Below the pieces are notes generated by a model. It made no database searches. It saw only the letters and a list, made by a program, of their open reading frames with translations, and was not told the origin of the DNA. A program made the translations under genes and the position numbers. Shown here piece by piece: positions 2,603 through 35,289 of a stretch of 35,289 nt of DNA (position 1 is the stretch's first letter; the number at the start of each line of letters is the position of its first letter). Origin of the DNA: a virus. Location: the IMG/VR virus record IMGVR_UViG_3300042567_002487, positions 1 to 35,289 of that record. One strand, given 5' to 3'.

Positions 2603-2674
2603 GCCCTTGTAGCTCAGTGGTAGAGCAACGCACTTGTAATGCGTAGGTCGTCAGTTCAATCCTGACCGAGGGCT
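2603..2674 (+). tRNA. tRNA-Thr (anticodon TGT)
   Basis: A full cloverleaf can be drawn: acceptor 2603-2609 with 2667-2673, a D arm beginning AGCTCAGTGG, anticodon stem ACGCA/TGCGT at 2628-2632 and 2640-2644, and loop CTTGTAA with anticodon TGT at 2635-2637. The T arm contains GTTCAATC. CCA is not encoded. It reads ACA, a codon used often in this window. Confidence 0.95.
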
Positions 2675-2676
2675 CA

Positions 2677-2919
2677 ATGAATGATGCAACCTGGACCTGG
2701 GTCCTTTTCGCAATGGAGATTATTGGCGTAGCGGGAATGCTTGTCGTCGGAAGAAAGATCTGGTGGGGTTGGCTTATTGTCCTGCTCCACAGCATCCCAT
2801 GGTTCATTTATTCCATCAGTCACAACAAGCCAGGCTTCATTGCGATGTCAGCAATGTGGTGGATCTCTCACGCCTACAACATGACAAAATGGCGTAGAGA
2901 GCAGCACAAGCCGAGGTAG
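2677..2919 (+). CDS. Small membrane protein between two tRNAs
   Basis: An 80-residue protein with about two to three hydrophobic helices (residues 7-25, 30-46, 53-66) and a basic C-terminus. The pattern GWLIVLLHSIPWFIYS recalls small phage membrane proteins with PnuC-like spacing, but I would not assign transport. The ATG lies 3 bases after tRNA-Thr, so there is no room for an independent ribosome site outside the tRNA. The last 10 bases, including the stop, are also the first 10 bases of tRNA-Arg. Confidence 0.75.
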   Translation: MNDATWTWVLFAMEIIGVAGMLVVGRKIWWGWLIVLLHSIPWFIYSISHNKPGFIAMSAMWWISHAYNMTKWRREQHKPR

Positions 2920-2982
2920 CTCAGTGGATAGAGCAAGAGCCTTCTAATCTCTTGGTCGCAGGTTCGATTCCTGCTCTCGGCG
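2910..2982 (+). tRNA. tRNA-Arg (anticodon TCT)
   Basis: Acceptor GCCGAGG pairs with TCTCGGC (one G-T). The D arm is GCTCAGTGGATAGAGC, the anticodon loop CTTCTAA with TCT at 2943-2945, and the T arm GCAGGTTCGATTCCTGC. The closing anticodon-stem pair (C-T) is a mismatch. It reads AGA. Its 5' end overlaps the preceding gene by 10 bases. Confidence 0.93.
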
Positions 2983-2995
2983 CAGATTTCAAAAG

Positions 2996-5751: not shown

Positions 5752-6342
5752 ATGAATAAACAAATACCAACCCAGCTTCAGCCTTTCATCGAGGCCCGCC
5801 GTATGATCGGTAGCTCGGTGCGACAAGGAGTCAAGATGGTTCTTGACGACGCGAAGCAGCCGCTGACGGTTCTCGAGATCAACCGATCGACCGAGCAACT
5901 GCTCGAACGACGTATTGACCAGAGCCACATCCGACTTGTTCTGCAAGAACTTCAAACTTCAGGCCTGGTAAGCACCAGAGTTGAGACGGTGGAAGAACGA
6001 CTACTTCGCGCAAACGGAAAAGCATCACGCGGATATCTTGCAACTTTCTACTGGACTCACGGTAAGCGTGTACCAGCACGAACGGTAGCTGAAGCAATTC
6101 CAGGCGTATCGCTTGAGCACCGATCAAAGACGGCTAAAAGAGCTAGCGGCAAAGTTGGTCGTCCTAAGGGATCGAAAAACAAGCCGAAAAAAACTTCAGG
6201 CCTAGTAGCGACTTCAAAAGGTGTGACGGTGGAAGTTTCATCTCTCATCGACGAGATCGTCAGATTACGCACTCTCGAGTTACAAGCGCAGATCTCAATT
6301 CTCGAGACAAAGCTTGCAGCAATTAAAATAACGCTGGCGTAA
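5752..6342 (+). CDS. Winged-helix / AT-hook DNA-binding protein
   Basis: A 196-residue protein. Residues 22-82 (LTVLEINRSTEQLL ... IRLVLQELQTSGLVSTR) have the helix, helix, recognition helix and wing pattern of a winged-helix domain. Residues 137-149 (GRPKGSKNKPKK) form an AT-hook-like minor-groove binder, and 163-196 is a heptad-rich coiled coil for oligomerisation. It is the first larger product of the promoter array and a good candidate regulator of it. Bipartite repeats lie in its own reading frame (5962, 6199) and just upstream. Confidence 0.7.
   Translation: MNKQIPTQLQPFIEARRMIGSSVRQGVKMVLDDAKQPLTVLEINRSTEQLLERRIDQSHIRLVLQELQTSGLVSTRVETVEERLLRANGKASRGYLATFYWTHGKRVPARTVAEAIPGVSLEHRSKTAKRASGKVGRPKGSKNKPKKTSGLVATSKGVTVEVSSLIDEIVRLRTLELQAQISILETKLAAIKITLA
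5962..5992 (+). repeat. Bipartite repeat, copy in regulator gene
   Basis: GGCCTGGTA, 14 bases, then GACGGTGG. Confidence 0.5.
6199..6232 (+). repeat. Bipartite repeat, second copy in regulator gene
   Basis: GGCCTAGTA, 17 bases, then GACGGTGG. Confidence 0.5.
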
Positions 6343-6356
6343 CTTCGCAAACGAGT

Positions 6357-6380
6357 CATGACCTGGTAGATTAGGTCATG
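6357..6380. promoter_or_regulatory. Perfect dyad containing a start codon
   Basis: CATGACCT (6357-6364) and AGGTCATG (6373-6380) are exact inverted repeats around 8 bases. With flanking ACGAG/CTCGT the arms extend to about 13 pairs with a small bulge. The ATG of the next gene is the last three bases of the right arm. TAGATT in the loop could be a -10 box. Operator, terminator or start-codon-occluding hairpin are all possible. Confidence 0.6.
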
Positions 6381-6638
6381 GTCTCGTTTGACATCATTGT
6401 CGTTGAAAATGCTGTTGACGCGATTATCGCGGCTCAACAAGGGATTTTCGATTTCATTATTGACGCCGGCGAGTGTGAAAACTGTGGAATGGTTATTGGC
6501 CCAATTGCTGATGAATTTTTTCCCTGCGCAATTGTTTCCGACAATGAAGATGTCAAATGGCCAATTTGCATTGACTGCGCGTTCCCTTTGATTTATCCGC
6601 GAGAGTGGATGATCGGGATGGACTCTGACGAATTCTAA
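6378..6638 (+). CDS. Zinc-ribbon hypothetical protein
   Basis: An 86-residue acidic protein with CENCG (residues 33-37) and CIDC (64-67) pairs, consistent with one zinc site. There is no ribosome site; the ATG sits in the dyad at 6357-6380, so translation may be leaderless or structure-controlled. The TAA at 6636-6638 is embedded in promoter copy 3. Confidence 0.7.
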   Translation: MVSFDIIVVENAVDAIIAAQQGIFDFIIDAGECENCGMVIGPIADEFFPCAIVSDNEDVKWPICIDCAFPLIYPREWMIGMDSDEF

Positions 6639-6982: not shown

Positions 6983-7024
6983 GAACTTATCAGCAAGCGC
7001 TGATATAACGAAAAGGACAAAACA

Positions 7025-7435
7025 ATGACAAAGCGATTCGAAATCAAAGTGGCTGGAGCGACTATCACAGTCATCCCTCGTAGCTATAAATACAGCTATA
7101 AGAAAGAGTACTACCAAGCACCACGCATGTATGTGAGCGTTGCCGATGAGTCGATCATGGATAACCTTGCGAATCGCAAGCGCCGCCCATACAATGTCTA
7201 CAAGACGCTGATCCACTCAAGCGATATCGCAAGTGTTCTCAACCTTAGCGGACTACGCTGGTCACAGCACGCCGGTTGCACATGCAACTGCTCGCCAGGA
7301 TTCATCCTAAACAGCGTGCAGTCCGTCAAAGACGAGGATGGAAACTATCTCAGTCACTTCGATATCTGGGTGACTCTCGAGAATGCTCCTTCAGTTGATG
7401 AGACCAAGCCAGCCCGCGTGCTGGTTGGTCTCTAA
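7025..7435 (+). CDS. Hypothetical with Cys cluster
   Basis: A 136-residue basic protein with AAAAGGACAA before the ATG. The N-terminal half looks beta-rich with many Tyr. A compact CTCNCSPGF motif near residue 84, preceded by RWSQHAG, may bind metal. Similar Cys motifs occur in uncharacterised phage proteins. Confidence 0.75.
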   Translation: MTKRFEIKVAGATITVIPRSYKYSYKKEYYQAPRMYVSVADESIMDNLANRKRRPYNVYKTLIHSSDIASVLNLSGLRWSQHAGCTCNCSPGFILNSVQSVKDEDGNYLSHFDIWVTLENAPSVDETKPARVLVGL

Positions 7436-7436
7436 A

Positions 7437-7453
7437 ACTAAAGTTGTTATAAT
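7437..7453 (+). promoter_or_regulatory. Promoter element copy 5 (AAAGT class)
   Basis: ACTAAAG-TTGT-TATAAT. The ATG at 7461 follows after 7 bases: leaderless. Confidence 0.85.
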
Positions 7454-7460
7454 GATCTTT

Positions 7461-7979
7461 ATGGAAACAAACAAAAAAACAAAAACAAAAGCGTTCTTCT
7501 ATCAAAGAGAGTATAGCAGTTATGTAGAGATAGATCTTTCTAATCCTCTTCATAATGAACTTGCGTATCTATTCTTTGATCGGGATCTAAGTAATCCAAA
7601 GTGGTGTCCGGGAGTTTTTCCAGGATCTATTAGAAAAGCTACGGAGCTGATGAAAAAGATTGAAGGGTTTGTCGGAAAGCCAGATGCTTCAAATCTCTAT
7701 CTTAAAGTTTATAATCTTGATGAAAACGGGAAAGTCATCGGGACGTATAAAAAGAAAACTACCCATAAAACATTTAATAACAACCTTGTCCCATTCACTA
7801 CTACTATAAAAGTAACAGAAGAAGACTACATATGCGACTACTGCCTTGATCTGGGCCGCCACAATGAAGAAGAGCACGGTCCTCTGATGGATATGGAACT
7901 CAAAGTAAACTCAGCATTAGACTTAATATTTTGCAGGTTCTGCCACGGGACTCAAGACTACACAGAAGTAAAAGACTAA
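7461..7979 (+). CDS. Leaderless hypothetical, zinc-finger C-terminus
   Basis: A 172-residue protein. The frame is open from 7383, but the ATG at 7461 is the true start by promoter geometry. A Lys-rich N-terminus is followed by a mixed domain and, near 124-165, CDYCLDLGRHNEEEH and CRFCHG, giving a likely zinc site. Codon use is more T-rich than in its neighbours, suggesting a separate origin. Confidence 0.7.
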   Translation: METNKKTKTKAFFYQREYSSYVEIDLSNPLHNELAYLFFDRDLSNPKWCPGVFPGSIRKATELMKKIEGFVGKPDASNLYLKVYNLDENGKVIGTYKKKTTHKTFNNNLVPFTTTIKVTEEDYICDYCLDLGRHNEEEHGPLMDMELKVNSALDLIFCRFCHGTQDYTEVKD

Positions 7980-21269: not shown

Positions 21270-21890
21270 ATGACTACAATTGTTGCCGTACAAGGTAATG
21301 GTTGGTCAGTCGTCGGGTACGACTCTCAAGTAACAGAAGAAGATGGTCGTCGCTACACAATGGCACGCGGTTCTTCTAAGGTTGCAAAGAACGGAGAGTA
21401 CCTACTTGGTGCGGCAGGCGATGTGCGAGCAATAAATATTCTTGCATACGCTTTCGCTCCACCAAAAGTTGGAGACTTGACAGGTGTTCGGCTTGACAGG
21501 TTCATCACAAGTAGATTCGTTCCAGCATTGCGGGCGTGCTTTGAAGCTCAAGGATACGCTGCATCAAAAGAATCAAAAGAGATCGCGGAGCAAGGCTCTG
21601 TTGTCTTAGTTGTAGTCAACGGAACTATCTATGTGATTGGCGAAGACTATTCTTGGGTGCGAGACTCAGGAGCGATCTACGCATTTGGTTCAGGTGGAGA
21701 CTACGCACTTGGTGCATTGTATTCATACGGCATTGAAAAAGTAACATCACGCGTTGATGTAGCGCAAGACTTGATTCGTAATTCTCTTGCCGTTGCATCG
21801 AGACTCGACCCAGGCACAGGAGCTCCATTTCATATTATGACTCAGAGCCCTGTGAAAATAGAAAAGAAACCGGTAAGGAAACCAAGATGA
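21270..21890 (+). CDS. HslV / proteasome-beta-like Ntn hydrolase
   Basis: A 206-residue protein with strong GAGGAG site. It begins MTTIVAVQGNG and continues GYDSQVT, then YLLGAAGD and FGSGGDYALGALYSYG, the order of strands seen in HslV and 20S beta subunits. Thr2 (after Met removal) would be the N-terminal nucleophile; LDPGTGAPF matches the late loop. No HslU-type unfoldase is adjacent, though a MoxR ATPase is encoded elsewhere. It is likely to be a cytoplasmic self-compartmentalised hydrolase or a relative without protease activity. Confidence 0.8.
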   Translation: MTTIVAVQGNGWSVVGYDSQVTEEDGRRYTMARGSSKVAKNGEYLLGAAGDVRAINILAYAFAPPKVGDLTGVRLDRFITSRFVPALRACFEAQGYAASKESKEIAEQGSVVLVVVNGTIYVIGEDYSWVRDSGAIYAFGSGGDYALGALYSYGIEKVTSRVDVAQDLIRNSLAVASRLDPGTGAPFHIMTQSPVKIEKKPVRKPR

Positions 21891-26577: not shown

Positions 26578-28005
26578 ATGGGTAAAAGTCTTGCACAGGT
26601 CATCGCGGAGATGCCAGAGGATGAACGCAACGCAGTGCTTGCGGGTGTCGATATGGATGCGCTTGCTTGGGACTGGAAGTTCTGGGCACGCCCTGAACAA
26701 CTTCCTCCTGCTAATGATGACTGGGCAATTTGGATGTACCTTGCGGGTCGAGGTGCAGGCAAGACTCGAAGCGCTGCTGAGTGGGTGAGAGACAAAGCCA
26801 AAGACACTTCGCATGGTCAATTGCGCTTTGCTCTTGTTGCACGTACTGCGGCTGACGTTCGTGACGTTATTGTTGAAGGCGAGTCAGGCATCATCTCTGT
26901 TTCACCACCGAGTGAGCGGCCACTCTATGAGCCATCAAAGCGACGACTGACTTGGCCGAACGGCAACACAGCAACATGCTTCACTGCTGATGAGCCTGAT
27001 GGGCTTCGAGGCCCGCAGTTCACTCACGCTTGGGCAGACGAGATTGCTGCGTGGCGTCAATCACCTGACGCTGCGGGTATGACATCATGGGACAACTTAC
27101 GTGTCGCAACTCGTCTCGGAAACAATCCTCAGATTATCTGCACAACAACTCCAAAGCGTGTGCCGGTTCTCTACAACTTAATCAATGAGTCAGTGAAGAC
27201 TGGGCGTGTGATCATCTCTCGTGGATCAACACTTGACAACTCAGGTAACCTGTCAGAGACTTATCTTGACGCGATCACTGGTGTGTATGCGGGAACACGT
27301 TTGGCTGCACAGGAACTCTACGGTGAGATGCTGAGTGATGTTGAAGGTGCTCTGTGGACAATTGAATCCATTGACGCAGGACGACAAACAGTGATGCCAC
27401 ATGGTGTGTCACTTCGTTGTATTGGTGTTGACCCGTCTGTTGCTGAGCGACCAGGAGATGAGTGCGGCATTGTTGTATGTGCATCTTCAGGTGAACGAGA
27501 TCTCTACAAACGACAAGCATGGATTCTCGAAGACGCGTCGATTCTTGGCTCACCTGAAGTGTGGGCTAATACGGTTGTTGCAATGGCGCGTAAGTGGGGA
27601 TGTCCGGTTGTGTGTGAAGTGAACCAAGGCGGTGCTCTTGTGCGCAACGCGATCAACACAATTGATCCTTCAGTGAAGGTGCTAGAGGTTCACTCAAAGT
27701 ACGGCAAAGCTTTGCGGGCAGAGCCAATCTCAATGGCGTACGATCAGGGTCGTGTTCATCACATCAACTACTTACCTGATCTCGAGTCGCAGATGTGTTC
27801 ATGGATTCCTGGTGAAGGCAAGTCTCCGGACCGTGTTGACGCGATGGTGCATGCGCTTACGGCTCTTATGATCAAGCCACCTGAAGGATTCACTGGCGGT
27901 ACAATCACAGCGAAGTCGCCTGCGGCTAGAAGACTTCCGGCATTTCGCGGTGGCAATAGCGGCACAGGTAAAAGCAGTGGCGCACGATTGTTCTTACCAA
28001 AGTGA
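26578..28005 (+). CDS. terL: Terminase large subunit
   Basis: A 475-residue protein. Walker A GRGAGKT at 57-63; FTHAWADEIAAW supplies Walker B with its catalytic Glu; a C-terminal RNase-H-like nuclease opens with GVDPSVAERPGDECG (first Asp 285) and keeps later acidic residues (RVDAMVHAL). It is the ATP-driven motor that packages DNA into the prohead and cuts it. It starts the morphogenesis block. Confidence 0.93.
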   Translation: MGKSLAQVIAEMPEDERNAVLAGVDMDALAWDWKFWARPEQLPPANDDWAIWMYLAGRGAGKTRSAAEWVRDKAKDTSHGQLRFALVARTAADVRDVIVEGESGIISVSPPSERPLYEPSKRRLTWPNGNTATCFTADEPDGLRGPQFTHAWADEIAAWRQSPDAAGMTSWDNLRVATRLGNNPQIICTTTPKRVPVLYNLINESVKTGRVIISRGSTLDNSGNLSETYLDAITGVYAGTRLAAQELYGEMLSDVEGALWTIESIDAGRQTVMPHGVSLRCIGVDPSVAERPGDECGIVVCASSGERDLYKRQAWILEDASILGSPEVWANTVVAMARKWGCPVVCEVNQGGALVRNAINTIDPSVKVLEVHSKYGKALRAEPISMAYDQGRVHHINYLPDLESQMCSWIPGEGKSPDRVDAMVHALTALMIKPPEGFTGGTITAKSPAARRLPAFRGGNSGTGKSSGARLFLPK

Positions 28006-29212: not shown

Positions 29213-29317
29213 GTGAAAGTAGCTCAAGTTCTTCCTCAGTCAGAACGCGAGTTTCTCGCCGTCCTTAAGGATGATGAATTAAAAAGACAAGTCAAGTCTT
29301 ACAAGCGTGTACCGTGA
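29213..29317 (+). CDS. 34-residue basic peptide upstream of glycosyltransferase
   Basis: A GTG start 6 bases after TACAGT, and a GTGA overlap with the glycosyltransferase. A charged helix (VLPQSEREFLAVLKDDELKRQVKSY) with a basic end. Probably a coupled leader gene. Confidence 0.5.
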   Translation: MKVAQVLPQSEREFLAVLKDDELKRQVKSYKRVP

Positions 29318-30309
29318 GCAGTAGCAATATACCGCGTAACGGCAAGATTTTTGTTGGGGTGCCGGCGTATGATGAGCCGTTCCTTGAGGCTACCGTAGAA
29401 GATGCGTATGAGAAGGCTGATGACCCTGCCCGTGTTTTCTTTGGGATCCACAATCAAAAGAGCGCGCCCAACAAGTTTGAGGATCTTTCAAGGTTCAAAA
29501 ATGTGCGCGTCACTAGCGCCGTATATCATCTTCCGCCAGGCGTCAGTATTAGCCGCTTAAATGCATCTCTTCTTCACGAAAATGAAGAGTACTACATGCA
29601 GATAGATGCGCACAACTTCTTTGTACCAGGCTGGGACACTATTATGCGTGATGACTACGACTTGCTCGCGTCTCACGTTGAAAAGCCAGTAATAGCGACA
29701 TCGCAGTACTGGCACGAACTTCATGCGTATGAGCCAGGCAATACGCACAGACTGTCATTCTATCTTGTCGACGATCGCAACAATTACACAGCTGGTATGC
29801 CGTTTACTGTAAATGATAACGGTGATGCGGTGCACGACGATTCAAGAGCATCTGAGCCGCGATTCCTTGACAAGTTCCAAGAGCACTACACTATGAACGC
29901 TAGTGCGGGAGTTTTTACGTCGAGCAGTATCATCTACGACGTGTCGTATGAGCCATTTACGATGTACCTTCCAGAGCAAGAGTTATTCGCGCTACGTGCA
30001 TACACACGTGGATACAGATTCTTTAGCAGTGACACGGCTGTAACTTCGACTCTTTCAAAGAATCTACCTAACGGTGATTTCCAGTCTGACGTATTTCCGA
30101 CAAGTCTTCAAGCGCGCCTTACCTCACATGTGCATGACAGTAAAGAGCGCTGGAAAAGCAACCTCTCTTTTGAGTATCTGCGTGGCGAAAGATTTGGTTT
30201 TGCCGGGGCCCCTAATAAAGAACTGTACGAAAAATACGTAAAAGACTCTGGGATTGACTTTAGGCGTTATAAAAAAATTGAACCTCCAGGCCCTGAAATT
30301 GTACATTAG
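29314..30309 (+). CDS. GlcNAc-type glycosyltransferase (PF11397-like)
   Basis: A 331-residue protein, GTG start in GTGA overlap. FVGVPAYDEPFLEATVEDA with FFGIHNQ is the N-terminal Rossmann half, and YYMQIDAHNFFVPGWD holds the DAH-type metal site that stands in for DXD in this family. Family members add N-acetylglucosamine. Target could be virion protein, teichoic acid or DNA. It stands between the gene-free region and the portal block. Confidence 0.8.
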   Translation: MSSSNIPRNGKIFVGVPAYDEPFLEATVEDAYEKADDPARVFFGIHNQKSAPNKFEDLSRFKNVRVTSAVYHLPPGVSISRLNASLLHENEEYYMQIDAHNFFVPGWDTIMRDDYDLLASHVEKPVIATSQYWHELHAYEPGNTHRLSFYLVDDRNNYTAGMPFTVNDNGDAVHDDSRASEPRFLDKFQEHYTMNASAGVFTSSSIIYDVSYEPFTMYLPEQELFALRAYTRGYRFFSSDTAVTSTLSKNLPNGDFQSDVFPTSLQARLTSHVHDSKERWKSNLSFEYLRGERFGFAGAPNKELYEKYVKDSGIDFRRYKKIEPPGPEIVH

Positions 30310-30325: not shown

Positions 30326-30880
30326 GTGTCAAAAATAAAGCAAGTAATACCTCCTGAGGAGCGGCTTTTTCTGCAAGAGCTGTCTAAGCTAGATTGCATG
30401 TCTCGTGTACAGCAGTTACATCAGGCAGGCTGGACCCTCGCGGCAATCGGGAACGCGTTCAATCCGCCAAAGCAGCGCTCAACTATACATTCATGGGTAA
30501 CAGCCCCGCCCCGAACAAACACCCTCCCTCCTCCTCCCCCTCCTTCTTTTTCCTCTTCCTCTTCCTCCTCTTCTTCTTCTTCTATACACTTACCTACGGC
30601 TGAAAATTCAGACCAGACCAAAACCCAGGCTCGGGCGTATAGAATGTATGATACAGAAGCACCTGTTCTTTCAAAGACTGTTCATAACCGCATTGCAAAG
30701 ATCGCACCAATTGCACGGCGATATAGAGCAAAGGCCAACCCCAATGGCATATATAAAGAAGCAAACGACGAACTCACCAGTATAGCTAAAGAGCAATATG
30801 CTAAAGGCGTTTCAATTCGAGAACTATGCCTAGCCGCTGGTGTCACATATAGAGCTATGGCTCGCCGCCTGGGAAGATAG
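30326..30880 (+). CDS. Two-HTH protein with Pro/Ser linker
   Basis: A 184-residue protein. N-terminal HTH (LHQAGWTLAAIGNAF, residues 31-45), a linker of poly-Pro then a dozen Ser (about 66-88), and a C-terminal HTH (GVSIRELCLAAGVTYRAMARRLG, 160-183). The linker is coded by a 62-base all-pyrimidine tract. Between terminase and portal this could be the small terminase (DNA recognition) or a late regulator. Confidence 0.65.
   Translation: MSKIKQVIPPEERLFLQELSKLDCMSRVQQLHQAGWTLAAIGNAFNPPKQRSTIHSWVTAPPRTNTLPPPPPPSFSSSSSSSSSSSIHLPTAENSDQTKTQARAYRMYDTEAPVLSKTVHNRIAKIAPIARRYRAKANPNGIYKEANDELTSIAKEQYAKGVSIRELCLAAGVTYRAMARRLGR
30522..30583 (+). repeat. 62-base uninterrupted pyrimidine tract
   Basis: Only C and T from 30522 to 30583, encoding Pro and Ser. 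It could form triplex DNA and vary by slippage. Confidence 0.8.
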
Positions 30881-30883
30881 GCT

Positions 30884-31261
30884 ATGAGAATAATACATGA
30901 TCTATTTCCCGCTCGAGTTCGCGTTTCCGCAGACTTTTCATTTAGCGACGACGCAGACAAGACGCCAGTTCTCAGTAGTAACGCTACAAGAATAGTAGAG
31001 TCCGTTCGCATTGTTGTCACAGAAGATACTGTTTTCGTAGCAGCAGACTCTCATACAGGACCAGTCCTTATCTTCCGCGATAAATACCAGCCAGAGAATA
31101 TAACGCTTGTTGGCAAAAGAAAAGATCTAGAGTCACGGATTATTACCGACACGGGCAAACTCATTCTGTTTAAGAGTGATGACGGTTGCGGTTGTGGAAG
31201 TAAACTCCGTGCCTGGAACCCATACAACACAGTTTACTCAACGAAGGACCAAACAGAATGA
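30884..31261 (+). CDS. Hypothetical protein
   Basis: A 125-residue protein starting 4 bases after the HTH gene. Beta-rich, with IVVTEDTVFVAADSHTGPV and a CGCGSKLRAWNPY motif near 105-117 that I have seen in phage structural-module hypotheticals. ATGA overlap with the next gene. Confidence 0.75.
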   Translation: MRIIHDLFPARVRVSADFSFSDDADKTPVLSSNATRIVESVRIVVTEDTVFVAADSHTGPVLIFRDKYQPENITLVGKRKDLESRIITDTGKLILFKSDDGCGCGSKLRAWNPYNTVYSTKDQTE

Positions 31262-31560
31262 CTACTGATATGACCGTGCTGCAGTTTGCTATACTCGCAT
31301 TCGCAGCTTTTAGAATTACACGACTTGTGACTCGAGACGTGATTTTTAATCCACTTCGCGAAAAAATCTGGAATAAGTACCCGCCATCTGGTAACGGTGT
31401 TGGGTACATCATCACCTGCGACTGGTGCACAAGCATTTGGGTATCATCACTTATTGTAGTTATGTATACAATTGCTACTAGCTTCACCTTCGGAGTATGT
31501 TGCATGTTTGCAATTTCCTCCGTGGTTGGCTTACTAACCGCACTTGTAGATCAATCGTAA
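31258..31560 (+). CDS. DUF1360-like membrane protein
   Basis: A 100-residue protein. FRITRLVTRDVIFNPLREKIW, then ITCDWCTSIWVSS and two transmembrane helices, match the DUF1360 pattern (R-D near the N-terminus, CxxCxxxW at the membrane entry). Small phage and sporulation membrane proteins of unknown job. Confidence 0.8.
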   Translation: MTTDMTVLQFAILAFAAFRITRLVTRDVIFNPLREKIWNKYPPSGNGVGYIITCDWCTSIWVSSLIVVMYTIATSFTFGVCCMFAISSVVGLLTALVDQS

Positions 31561-31611: not shown

Positions 31612-33312
31612 GTGGGCGTTTTCCGCCGAGAGCCAACAGGAAGAACTACTCCGAAGAGCAGACCAGCGTCTGCATTGGATAGCGTTATCTTTCCTAGCAA
31701 CTACAACACTGCTCAGTCGTTGCCGTACTCTGCGCCCCGTGGACTTACAGCTGCCGCCGTTCAAGTACGCTTGAATGATAAAGGCGAAGCTGACCAATTC
31801 AAAGCACGCCGTACTGCAAGCTCTAGTGCTTGGCAAGGTGAAGCCTGGGAATACTATGACGCTATTGGCGAAGTTAAGTACGCATTTAACTTAGTCGCAT
31901 CTGTTGTTTCTCGTATTCGTCTTTATGCTGCTGTTGTTGACAACCCTGCTGAAACACCAGTAGCTGTTCGCAATACAGACAGCATTGACCAGCGTTTAGC
32001 AAGCGCCGCTGAGCGTGCACTTGCGAGATTAGATTCTGCCTATGGCGGCCAAGCAGGAATGCTTCGCGACGCGGCGCTGAACATCAGCGTCTCTGGCGAA
32101 TGCTACTTAGTGCAGATGCCAGCACGACCTGGATCTGGAATTCAAGAGTCATGGGATATTCGTTCTACAGACGAAGTGCAGATTGACCAAAAAGGTAACT
32201 ACACAATTGCTGGTCGTCGCGACCTTGCTGGACCTGAAGGTGCACGAAGCGGTAAGGGAATTCTTTCTCTTCCAGGGAATGCATTCGTTGGTCGCATCTG
32301 GCGCGCACACCCAAGATTTTCAGATGAAGCTGATTCGTCACTTCGTGGATTGCTCGACCTATGTGCCGAGCTTCTCCTTCTGAATCGCACATTCCGTGCG
32401 ACGGCGCGTTCCCGCTTGAACGCTGGTGCGCTCTATCTTCCTGACGGTCTATCAGTTGCAGCTTCAGCTGATCCTGATTATCCATACGATGAATCGTCTG
32501 ACTTAAATCCTGGACTTACTCCAGAAGAAGCAGCAGATGAATTCGAAGATCAACTCATTGATGCAATGACTACTCCTATTCGTGACGAAGACTCTGCATC
32601 AGCAGTTGTTCCTTTGATCATTCGTGGACCTGCAGAACTTGGTGACAAGATCAAGCAGTTCAAGTTCGAGCGTTCATTTGACCCTGCACTTGCACAACGT
32701 GCTGACCGTGTTCTTGAGAGAATTCTTCAAGGTCTCGATGTTCCAAAAGACATCGTCACAGGTCTTGCGAATGTTAAGTACTCAAATGCATTGCAGATTG
32801 ACGAATCACTCTACAAGGCGCATATTGAACCATTGATGCTTCTTATTGCAGACGCACTCACGGTTGTCTATTTGCGCCCTTACTTGATTGCAAACGGATT
32901 TACTGCAACTGACGTTGAGCGTTTGGTTATCTGGTACGATCCAAGTCAAGTTGCAACACGTAATGACAGAGCTGCAGATGCTGACTCTGGTTTCGACCGC
33001 ATGGCAGTTTCATTTGATACATGGCGCCGTGCTCATGGATTTAACGAACACGATGCACCAACACCAAACGAAATCGCTTTGCGACTTATGTTTGAAAAGG
33101 GTGTCATCTCGCCAGAGCTTACGGAGTCTATGTTGAAGTTGATTGCACCAGATGTAATTAACGGAGCAACACAAGCTCAGCAAGCGACTAGCGTTGCACC
33201 AATTCCACCAGAGGTTCAACAAATTCTTAAGAATGCGCAAGGCGGCGTAGGTGCACCACCTGCTCCCGCAGAGCCAGAAGCCAGCGCGCCTACAGATACA
33301 GAGGAGCAGTAA
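31612..33312 (+). CDS. Portal protein
   Basis: A 566-residue protein, GTG start after GAGGAGAAATA. The signature block near residues 374-405 (GLDVPKDIVTGLANVKYSNALQ ... HIEPLMLLIADALT) is the portal crown/clip segment seen in many actinophages. The C-terminal 30 residues are Pro/Ala/Glu-rich. It forms the dodecameric DNA entry ring. It ends overlapping the Dps-like gene's ATG by one base. Confidence 0.9.
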   Translation: MGVFRREPTGRTTPKSRPASALDSVIFPSNYNTAQSLPYSAPRGLTAAAVQVRLNDKGEADQFKARRTASSSAWQGEAWEYYDAIGEVKYAFNLVASVVSRIRLYAAVVDNPAETPVAVRNTDSIDQRLASAAERALARLDSAYGGQAGMLRDAALNISVSGECYLVQMPARPGSGIQESWDIRSTDEVQIDQKGNYTIAGRRDLAGPEGARSGKGILSLPGNAFVGRIWRAHPRFSDEADSSLRGLLDLCAELLLLNRTFRATARSRLNAGALYLPDGLSVAASADPDYPYDESSDLNPGLTPEEAADEFEDQLIDAMTTPIRDEDSASAVVPLIIRGPAELGDKIKQFKFERSFDPALAQRADRVLERILQGLDVPKDIVTGLANVKYSNALQIDESLYKAHIEPLMLLIADALTVVYLRPYLIANGFTATDVERLVIWYDPSQVATRNDRAADADSGFDRMAVSFDTWRRAHGFNEHDAPTPNEIALRLMFEKGVISPELTESMLKLIAPDVINGATQAQQATSVAPIPPEVQQILKNAQGGVGAPPAPAEPEASAPTDTEEQ

Positions 33313-34451
33313 TGCAGACTAATAGCCAACTAAATCAAGCAGGCGGAGAAAATCCACTTGAAGCAGCTCTTCTGCAGTCGTTCTCAGACGTGTTTACTAT
33401 GTACTATCGCACTCATGCGTTTCATTGGAATGTAAAAGGTCCAGAGTTCTCGCAGTTCCATGATTTCTTTCAAACAATCTATGAAGATGTTTATGGCTCA
33501 ATTGATCCACTAGCAGAGAGCATTCGTAAGGTTGCTTGCGATGTTCCTTCAGCACTTAACGATATTTGCGGTATGTCACGAGTAAACGTGTCAGACGTAA
33601 CAAGCTCCAATCCAATGGATATGACAGCGTCTCTTCGTGACGCTAACGAAGTAGTTATGTCTTCGCTTAATGTAGCGTTCTCAGTTGCTGTAGCAGTCAA
33701 CGAGCAAGGTATTGCAGACTTCATTGCTGGACGACTTGATGCTCATAAAAAATGGGCATGGCAGTTGTCAACAACTCTTGGCGCTGATGATAAGCCAAAA
33801 ATTGAAACATCGAGTGTAACTCGCGTTGAGCGCACTATGCCTATCGAAGTAGAAATGTATCAAGCAGATGACATGGACGAAGATATGAACGAGCCACGCA
33901 TGATGCAGTTTAGTGACGCAACAGAGTCAACACTTAGTAGCAAAGTAGACGAGCACAATAATGTTGCACCAAATGGTCGCAAAGCATCTGTTGACATGCT
34001 CAAGGCTGTATACCGTCGGGGCGCTAGTTCATTTTCTAACTTAAACAATCCGCAGTACGCGTCTCGCGATGAGTGGGCGCTGTCTCGCGTTAATTCGTAT
34101 TTACGTTTGCTAAGAACGGGCGCACCTGTAAGTCTTAGCTATACTCAAGATAACGACTTACTCCCAAGCGGACATCCTAAGGCGATAAAAGAAGCAGCAA
34201 TGACTGCCTCTGCAGTTATCGCCTCTGAGCTTAGTTTGACATTGAAAGAAGAATATGAATACTCGTCTCCAGAACATGCAATCGTTTCGTTTGCAGAATT
34301 TTCTGGTCTCGGGTACGAGTCGGTTCCAGTTTTTAGAGCAGCATGGAAACGTGCTGTTGTTGATAACGAGAATCCATTTGCTAGAGCAAAAGATCTAGCA
34401 ATAAAAATGTACTCAAGCAAAGACGCTGACCTGTTGCCAAAAAAGAAATAG
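33312..34451 (+). CDS. Dps/ferritin-like fusion protein
   Basis: A 379-residue protein. Residues 17-155 are a Dps-type four-helix bundle: HWNVKGPEFSQFHDFF puts His38 and His50 at the exact 12-residue spacing of the Dps ferroxidase centre, and Asp65 and Glu69 fall where the second pair of ligands belongs; the usual Asp at position 54 is Gln. After an acidic linker, 210-375 is a second domain with MLKAVYRRG, RVNSYLRLLRTG, DNDLLPSGHP, RAAWKRA. Part of it recurs in the next gene. Its place between portal and a structural gene suggests a virion or DNA-protecting role. Confidence 0.8.
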   Translation: MQTNSQLNQAGGENPLEAALLQSFSDVFTMYYRTHAFHWNVKGPEFSQFHDFFQTIYEDVYGSIDPLAESIRKVACDVPSALNDICGMSRVNVSDVTSSNPMDMTASLRDANEVVMSSLNVAFSVAVAVNEQGIADFIAGRLDAHKKWAWQLSTTLGADDKPKIETSSVTRVERTMPIEVEMYQADDMDEDMNEPRMMQFSDATESTLSSKVDEHNNVAPNGRKASVDMLKAVYRRGASSFSNLNNPQYASRDEWALSRVNSYLRLLRTGAPVSLSYTQDNDLLPSGHPKAIKEAAMTASAVIASELSLTLKEEYEYSSPEHAIVSFAEFSGLGYESVPVFRAAWKRAVVDNENPFARAKDLAIKMYSSKDADLLPKKK

Positions 34452-34465
34452 ATAGGTGTATCCGA

Positions 34466-35289
34466 GTGAATACCAATAAAAAGCGTAGATCAAGACTCGC
34501 AAAAGTCTATACAGTAAAAATTCGCGAAGACATCACTAAGATGATCGAGAGAGCAAATCATTTTGCTCTTGCAGAACGTCAAGTTACATTGCAGACAGCG
34601 ATTGAAGTTGCTAACCGCGATCTTCGTAGAACAGTTGAAATGCACCCAGACCGTAGAGCATTCTCTGCACTAAAAGCCGTGTCAGCGCACATTGCACTAG
34701 CTTCAAATAACAAGTACACATCTGCATCATTAAGTAACTCTGATCTTCTTCCAGTTGGTCATCCGATGTCAACAGCACTTCATGCAATGACTTCGTCAGC
34801 TCTTGCTCATGCGCAAGCACGATGGATCGCAGCTGATAGACTTATCGCTGATGATACGCGCGCACTTGTAGCATCTGCCTATTCGCTTACACCAGACTCG
34901 TTTGAGCGTAGACACGCATTCGCTCGCCTCGCAGCAACGCCACATACGTCCGTACCTCGTATGCTCACACTTGACCCAATCATTGCAGTAGGCGGCTTTG
35001 GTCTCGGAGGAGACTCCAGCGCAGCGCGATCAATGCGCGCTAAACTACAGCGCCGTGACCGCTATGGCAAATTTGCATTCATGGGTGGTGGATTTTCTTT
35101 CAACTTGCGCGGCCTTGATGGCAGATTTACTAAGTTAGGTGGTCGCGTTGCAGGCGCAGGTGAAAACAACACTGTTGAGATTGAAGTAAAAGGTCATCCA
35201 ACAGTTCCTAATGGCATTTATTCATTGCCTGCAGGTAAAGGTGTTTCATCTAAAGCATGGCTACCAGAAAGTGTAGAAGTAAAAGACTC
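34466..35289 (+). CDS. Structural protein, open at window end
   Basis: A GTG start at 34466 and an uninterrupted frame of 274 codons to the edge. A helical N-terminal 140 residues contains SDLLPVGHPMSTALHAMTSSA, like the Dps-fusion's second domain. Later RRDRYGKFAFMGGGFSF and EVKGHPTVPNGIYSLPAG look like strands of a virion or maturation protein. Downstream of portal, a prohead protease/minor capsid protein is the usual occupant, but no catalytic motif is seen. Confidence 0.7.
   Translation, partial: MNTNKKRRSRLAKVYTVKIREDITKMIERANHFALAERQVTLQTAIEVANRDLRRTVEMHPDRRAFSALKAVSAHIALASNNKYTSASLSNSDLLPVGHPMSTALHAMTSSALAHAQARWIAADRLIADDTRALVASAYSLTPDSFERRHAFARLAATPHTSVPRMLTLDPIIAVGGFGLGGDSSAARSMRAKLQRRDRYGKFAFMGGGFSFNLRGLDGRFTKLGGRVAGAGENNTVEIEVKGHPTVPNGIYSLPAGKGVSSKAWLPESVEVKD

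Follow-up and report, generated by a model that had tools for sequence, protein, structure and literature searches.

The window that we analyzed is one linear virus record of 35,289 nt (IMG/VR record IMGVR_UViG_3300042567_002487), and its right-hand part is a head and packaging block that starts with the gene for the large terminase subunit and continues into a large gene that runs off the window (Table 1). Directly behind the portal protein gene lies a gene for a 379-aa protein in which a Dps (mini-ferritin) domain is joined, through an acidic and disordered linker (net charge of –7 over aa 161–205), to a DUF5824-like domain and a conserved helical domain, the last of these modeled by AlphaFold at pLDDT 86–97 from aa 311 onward. 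A full-length relative (L010) is 47% identical to the fusion protein. The TAA of the portal gene and the ATG of the fusion gene share one base (TAATG, within the sequence at 33301–33314), and a Shine-Dalgarno-like GAGGAG is located 5 nt upstream of the ATG, which argues that the Dps gene belongs to the head operon. An earlier note on this DNA had described a Dps domain fused to a phage structural-type domain next to the portal. Our analysis agrees, with the term "structural-type" resting on gene context and homologues, and the same context and homologues would place the window protein in the head.

Table 1 Features of the window, numbered from its first nucleotide (aa numbers refer to the 379-aa fusion protein)
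Feature	Position	Strand	Evidence or remark
tRNA-Thr and tRNA-Arg	2603..2983		near left end
PHROG 1040 match (HslV-type peptidase family)	21270..21890		E 8.8e-24
Terminase large subunit, start of head/packaging block	26578..28005	+	PF03237 1.1e-20, PF17289 2.2e-10
GlcNAc-type glycosyltransferase	29314..30309		PF11397; between terminase and portal
Predicted HTH protein	30326..30880		packaging region; proline-rich stretch, then serine run (low-complexity repeat)
DUF1360 protein	31258..31560		between terminase and portal
Portal protein gene	31612..33312	+	PHROG 776 E 1.9e-105; stop overlaps fusion start by 1 base
Dps-DUF5824-like fusion, 379 aa, ATG start	33312..34451	+	ORF, Pfam/PHROG
Dps/mini-ferritin domain, aa 15-158	33354..33785	+	PF00210, AlphaFold, Foldseek
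Ferroxidase motif H38-x11-H50-x3-Q54-x10-D65-x3-E69	33423..33518	+	viral-clade motif alignment
Codon of H38	33423..33425		
Codon of H50	33459..33461		
Codon of Q54	33471..33473		
Codon of D65	33504..33506		
Codon of E69	33516..33518		
W150-Q151, Gln where cellular Dps has Met/Phe after Trp	33759..33764	+	111/119 viral domains, first sample
Acidic disordered linker, aa 159-198	33786..33905	+	pLDDT < 50 at aa 160-196
DUF5824-like domain, aa 199-294 (RRG...DNDLLPxGHP)	33906..34193	+	local HMM (L090 = same protein)
C-terminal helical domain, conserved, aa 302-379, ends DADLLP	34215..34448	+	local HMM
Large head-block gene start, runs off window; N-terminus with second DLLPVGHP	34466..35289	+	

The Pfam family PF00210 (Ferritin) matched aa 18–158 of the protein with an E value of 3.3e-15 (56.7 bits against a cutoff of 24.5), and sequence searches also linked the domain to PHROG 3636 (E 8.5e-23) and to PDB entry 8ff9 (E 3.4e-17). 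Structure prediction had been named in the earlier note as a check on its Dps assignment, and an AlphaFold model built from an alignment of 27 sequences returned the four-helix ferritin fold, with pLDDT values of 91–98 in most blocks of the bundle and helices at aa 15–40, 46–73, 82–88, 101–128, and 132–156 that correspond to A, B, BC, C, and D of the Dps topology. The best Foldseek matches to the model were all Dps proteins, led by 8ff9 (Pseudomonas aeruginosa PA0962; TM score of 0.85 by target length, rmsd 1.5 Å). Given these Pfam, PHROG, PDB, and structural matches, we rejected a chance or mis-called Dps domain. At 28% identity over the structural alignment, PA0962 shares with the window domain the four-helix bundle with its BC helix and the intersubunit His/His/Asp/Glu site. 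Compared with PA0962 and other cellular Dps proteins, the viral clade described below mostly lacks the acidic ligand at position 67, and most of its members carry Gln instead of Met or Phe after the conserved helix-D Trp; the window domain further differs in having no basic DNA-binding tail and in being fused to a head-block protein.

Scanning IMG/VR with an alignment of 30 domains yielded at least 578 confirmed relatives, and a second alignment yielded at least 588; the viral Dps clade thus comprises more than 580 IMG/VR contigs. For comparisons within the clade we used the best 80 domains per scan, a non-random choice, which gave a first sample of 119 distinct domains and, after redundancy was collapsed at 90%, a wider set of 177. 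Only two contigs matched among 84,980 bacterial and archaeal genomes; each has Dps fused to a prohead protease and is therefore very likely of phage origin. No match at ≥60% identity was found in 50,697 phage records, and the plasmid-borne cellular Dps proteins that we sampled were at most 34% identical, one short piece excepted. In a quick tree, which has few columns and a small outgroup on long branches, a starred branch (SH-aLRT 95) separated the viral rows from the eight cellular Dps proteins sampled. The two genome contigs, the low identity to cellular Dps, and this branch leave a recent pick-up of a cellular host gene unsupported. One phage contig (L011) carries two different Dps genes, at 5992–6423 on the plus strand and 7023–7478 on the minus strand.

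In the ferroxidase site of the window domain, H38, H50, D65, and E69 occupy the places of E. coli H51, H63, D78, and E82, and Q54 occupies that of D67, so that four of the five canonical ligands (H51, H63, D/E67, D78, E82) are present, as the earlier note had read from the His-His spacing, the two acidic ligands, and the Gln. The H, H, D, and E residues showed no variation in any of the 119 or 120 viral domains sampled. Position 67, on the other hand, was Gly in 26, Ala in 24, Gln in 21, Glu in 15, Asn in 11, Ser in 10, and Leu in 9 of the 119 domains of the first sample, with a few other residues making up the rest. The wider set gave a similar picture, in which a simple motif search misplaced seven rows: H/H/D/E was kept almost without exception and the acid at position 67 was usually lost. 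The residue that follows the helix-D Trp was Gln in 121 and Met in 48 of the 177 domains of the wider set, Met being commoner there than in the first sample.

In canonical Dps, residue 67 acts via a water at site B (PMC6675082). The Nostoc protein NpDps4, which has Asn at this position, oxidizes Fe(II) with O2 and showed no use of H2O2, and its His164, contributed by a third subunit, binds iron at site B (PMC6675082). Like NpDps4, the window domain has a non-acidic, non-metal-binding residue at position 67 (Gln vs. Asn) and an altered site-B neighborhood; it differs in having Asp (the D78 place) rather than His at site A and Gln in place of His164, if the Gln after the helix-D Trp is, as we presume, equivalent to that residue. 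Because NpDps4 is active with Asn67 and two of the cellular Dps proteins in our sample also lack an acid there (Q and M), Gln at position 67 does not exclude membership in the Dps family. We also rejected the idea that the Gln marks a degenerate, dead ferroxidase site, since the clade as a whole varies at position 67 yet keeps the other four ligands unchanged. Judged from these residues, site A of the viral Dps looks intact and site B altered, and ferroxidase activity is plausible.

The DUF5824-like domain scored 14 bits against the PF19141 (DUF5824) gathering cutoff of 25, and we name it "DUF5824-like" only for this reason; its homologues in L010, L018, and L072 passed the cutoff at 33–36 bits. 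The closest cultured relative is Actinomycetia phage DSL-LC01, whose head-block protein WJZ48509 is 56% identical to the C-terminal half over 182 aa and is likewise encoded between the portal gene and a giant gene. Its N-terminal half, in contrast, has a VPNCVP-type domain and no Dps, and Dps is therefore dispensable for the head. In Salinibacter phages DUF5824 is fused with a protease, and in Roseobacter phage CRP-823 it lies ahead of a protease-capsid fusion. The window protein itself had no match to PF04586 (HK97-type prohead protease) in the Pfam search and none to a MuF domain in Pfam or PHROGs, and we rejected a MuF-type head cargo on the latter grounds.

A DLLP sequence recurs in this region. 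It closes both the DUF5824-like domain and, at the extreme C-terminus, the fusion protein, and it appears again in the next protein (window 33906–34448 and from 34466 on; L001 7494–8570 and from 8574 on). The gene after the fusion (window 34466–35289; L001 8574–16546) starts with DLLPVGHP, and its DSL-LC01 homologue is a giant gene of about 3290 aa between the portal and the capsid maturation proteases. Within 51 kb of DSL-LC01, DLLP was confined to the gene with the DUF5824 part and the giant gene. A role as a signal for processing or for docking is conceivable.

We called the architectures of the viral Dps genes with small local profiles and a simple ORF caller. In the first sample, a portal gene immediately preceded 49 of the 119 domains, 17 of them fused to DUF5824 and 32 solo, and in seven of the 32 portal-following solo genes the next gene encoded DUF5824 plus the C-terminal domain, i.e., the window protein in two pieces. 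Fusions to Peptidase_S78 accounted for 25 of the 119 domains, and S78 or capsid genes were located just downstream in five more. The wider set contained 47 fused domains and 53 that followed a portal gene. About half of that set (83 of 177) consisted of solo Dps genes without a recognized head gene nearby, and replication genes adjoined 15 of the 119 domains of the first sample. Linkage to the head therefore does not hold for every part of the clade.

Head maturation proteases of at least five families featured among the fusion partners, along with a minor head protein and, behind the portal, the DUF5824 module. Besides Peptidase_S78 (PF04586, with matches up to 4.6e-41), the proteases comprised an XkdF/S78_2-type enzyme (PF14550; L282), PHROG 9427 (L306), PHROG 18402 (L145, L310, and L318), and PHROG 3270 (L061 and L252), and the minor head protein was PHROG 16619, accompanied by a zeta-type kinase (L276). 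Domain order also varied, from protease-Dps (L154) to Dps-protease (L049) and HAD-Dps-protease (L153). The fused relatives retained the His motif (NHD) and the Ser motif (MSFAF) of the protease, and disordered linkers connected Dps with its partner. The Dps gene has capsid, head protease, or minor head genes beside it or nearby in L113, L145, L119, L137, and L099. Relatives of the window Dps are fused to or located beside an HK97-type prohead protease (Peptidase_S78); the window protein, by comparison, has a DUF5824-like partner and no protease domain. When the fused and solo labels were mapped on the tree, in which many forks are unsupported and a contig end (L009) counts as solo, we obtained 13 changes, and the starred branches alone force two to three changes per fusion class. 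Since the tree has few columns, we base the number of independent fusions on the differing partner families instead. That both partner family and domain order differ by lineage suggests that head location, and not one particular partner, has been selected, and we regard the association of the Dps fusions with the head as well supported by these gene arrangements.

Several other arrangements were seen among the relatives. A HAD-phosphatase-like domain precedes Dps in L041, L044, L045, L152, and L153 and adjoins or is joined to the prohead protease. Dps and a zeta-toxin-type kinase (PF06414) occur in one head-block protein in L276 (2807–5824) and L119 (9575–11968), one of them with PHROG 16619. 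The PHROG 2859 module (FxRHExDKxGxGF...GRVAWxxWGGD; e.g., L052 aa 5–107, L002 4340–5053, and many others) recurs across different phages in combination with head proteases, Dps, and DUF5824. Solo Dps genes of a separate group (L066, L069, L101, L118, and others) lie on the opposite strand beside genes for DnaB helicase, primase, and replication initiation; members such as L134 also have baseplate wedge genes.

The statement in the earlier note that Dps coats DNA was not borne out. The Dps domain of the window has a net charge of –11 (mean of –9.7 over the first sample), and direct DNA binding is unlikely because the domain is so acidic. A basic DNA-binding tail of the E. coli type, which is not universal in Dps, was absent, the N-terminal tail of the window protein containing no Lys or Arg, and only six of 80 N-terminal tails had two or more such residues. 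DNA coating through a basic tail is accordingly unsupported.

The prohead encloses its HK97-type maturation protease, and a Dps domain that is fused to such an enzyme should therefore enter the head too. On balance we favor the explanation that Dps enters the procapsid as cargo linked to a protease or head protein and oxidizes Fe(II) near the packaged DNA, which we consider probable but far from assured. A phage-specific mini-ferritin would be produced as a component of the head module and travel into the head during assembly. The form seen in the window, attached to a DUF5824-like head-block module, would be co-translated with the portal, and in the relatives the mini-ferritin is attached directly to a head maturation protease. 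In the procapsid, perhaps after release by proteolysis, the Dps domains would assemble into the usual oligomer and bind Fe(II) at the intersubunit His/Asp/Glu site, where it would be oxidized with O2 or H2O2, and removal of iron would lessen the damage that Fenton chemistry does to head proteins and to the packaged DNA. Presence in the particle, the oligomer, iron oxidation, and the protective effect are all predictions of this scheme. The earlier note had proposed that the protein is packaged or shields phage DNA from oxidative damage: an association with the head is upheld by the fusion of related Dps domains to unrelated head proteases and by their position behind the portal, and DNA coating is the part that finds no support. 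The most likely task of the domain would be to oxidize and trap Fe(II) close to DNA.

Dps might instead be a late-expressed auxiliary product that lowers iron and peroxide in the infected cell, placed in the head operon for timing and not found in the particle. Such a host-helper role is what the literature assigns to Dps and ferritin of phages (Benler 2021, PMC8008677; Kavagutti 2019, PMC6802176), and it fits both the Dps genes of cultured phages, which are solo and outside the head block, and the viral Dps domains that sit beside replication genes. We nevertheless think it unlikely, as it leaves the repeated covalent joining of Dps to several unrelated head proteases unexplained. Those same fusions, together with the portal-adjacent module, the disordered linkers, and the frequent loss of the acid at position 67, would be expected if the Dps fold were an oligomerizing module whose cage or dimer holds head-block proteins or proteases together in the core of the procapsid, with the metal site serving stability rather than iron oxidation. 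Four invariant metal ligands are more than an oligomer needs, however, and solo Dps genes occupy the same place behind the portal, and we judge this idea quite improbable. That Dps carries iron in the particle for entry or host supply seems to us very improbable indeed: iron-in-virion hypotheses exist, and mass spectrometry has picked up a ferritin-like protein in Vi01-like phages (PMC10892097), but the Ferrojan-horse hypothesis concerns tail proteins and surface receptors, whereas the Dps domain here sits with portal, protease, and capsid genes.

Phage Dps proteins are known as products of solo genes and are thought to help the host (PMC8008677, PMC6669764), ferritin has been counted among the genes for defense against reactive oxygen species in freshwater phages (PMC6802176), and the ferritin-like protein of Vi01-like phages has been detected by mass spectrometry (PMC10892097). 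The stand-alone Dps proteins of Gratiaviridae and of Lactobacillus, Aeromonas, and Streptomyces phages share the phage-encoded Dps fold with the window protein; they differ in being solo and outside the head block in the records that we examined, and their similarity is distant, with no match at ≥60% identity. We found no account of Dps-head protein fusions when we searched the literature on Dps or ferritin in connection with the head or the prohead protease. Unreviewed BFVD entries named "Prohead protease [uncultured Caudovirales phage]" match the Dps fold, and the sequences of Dps-protease fusions have thus been deposited but, within the literature searched, not discussed.

The recurrent fusion to head proteases and the fixed place behind the portal point to the particle itself rather than to help for the host. 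Fusion to a protease or head protein would offer a natural route for loading a mini-ferritin into a capsid, and the idea of a particle cargo is directly testable by virion proteomics and iron measurement. We put it at about an even chance that fusions of a viral mini-ferritin to prohead-bound proteins arose several times independently in uncultured phages, producing virions with an iron-oxidizing, DNA-shielding cargo. An antioxidant virion cargo would, if real, be a class not yet described, and some common aquatic phages would carry their own protection against Fenton chemistry.
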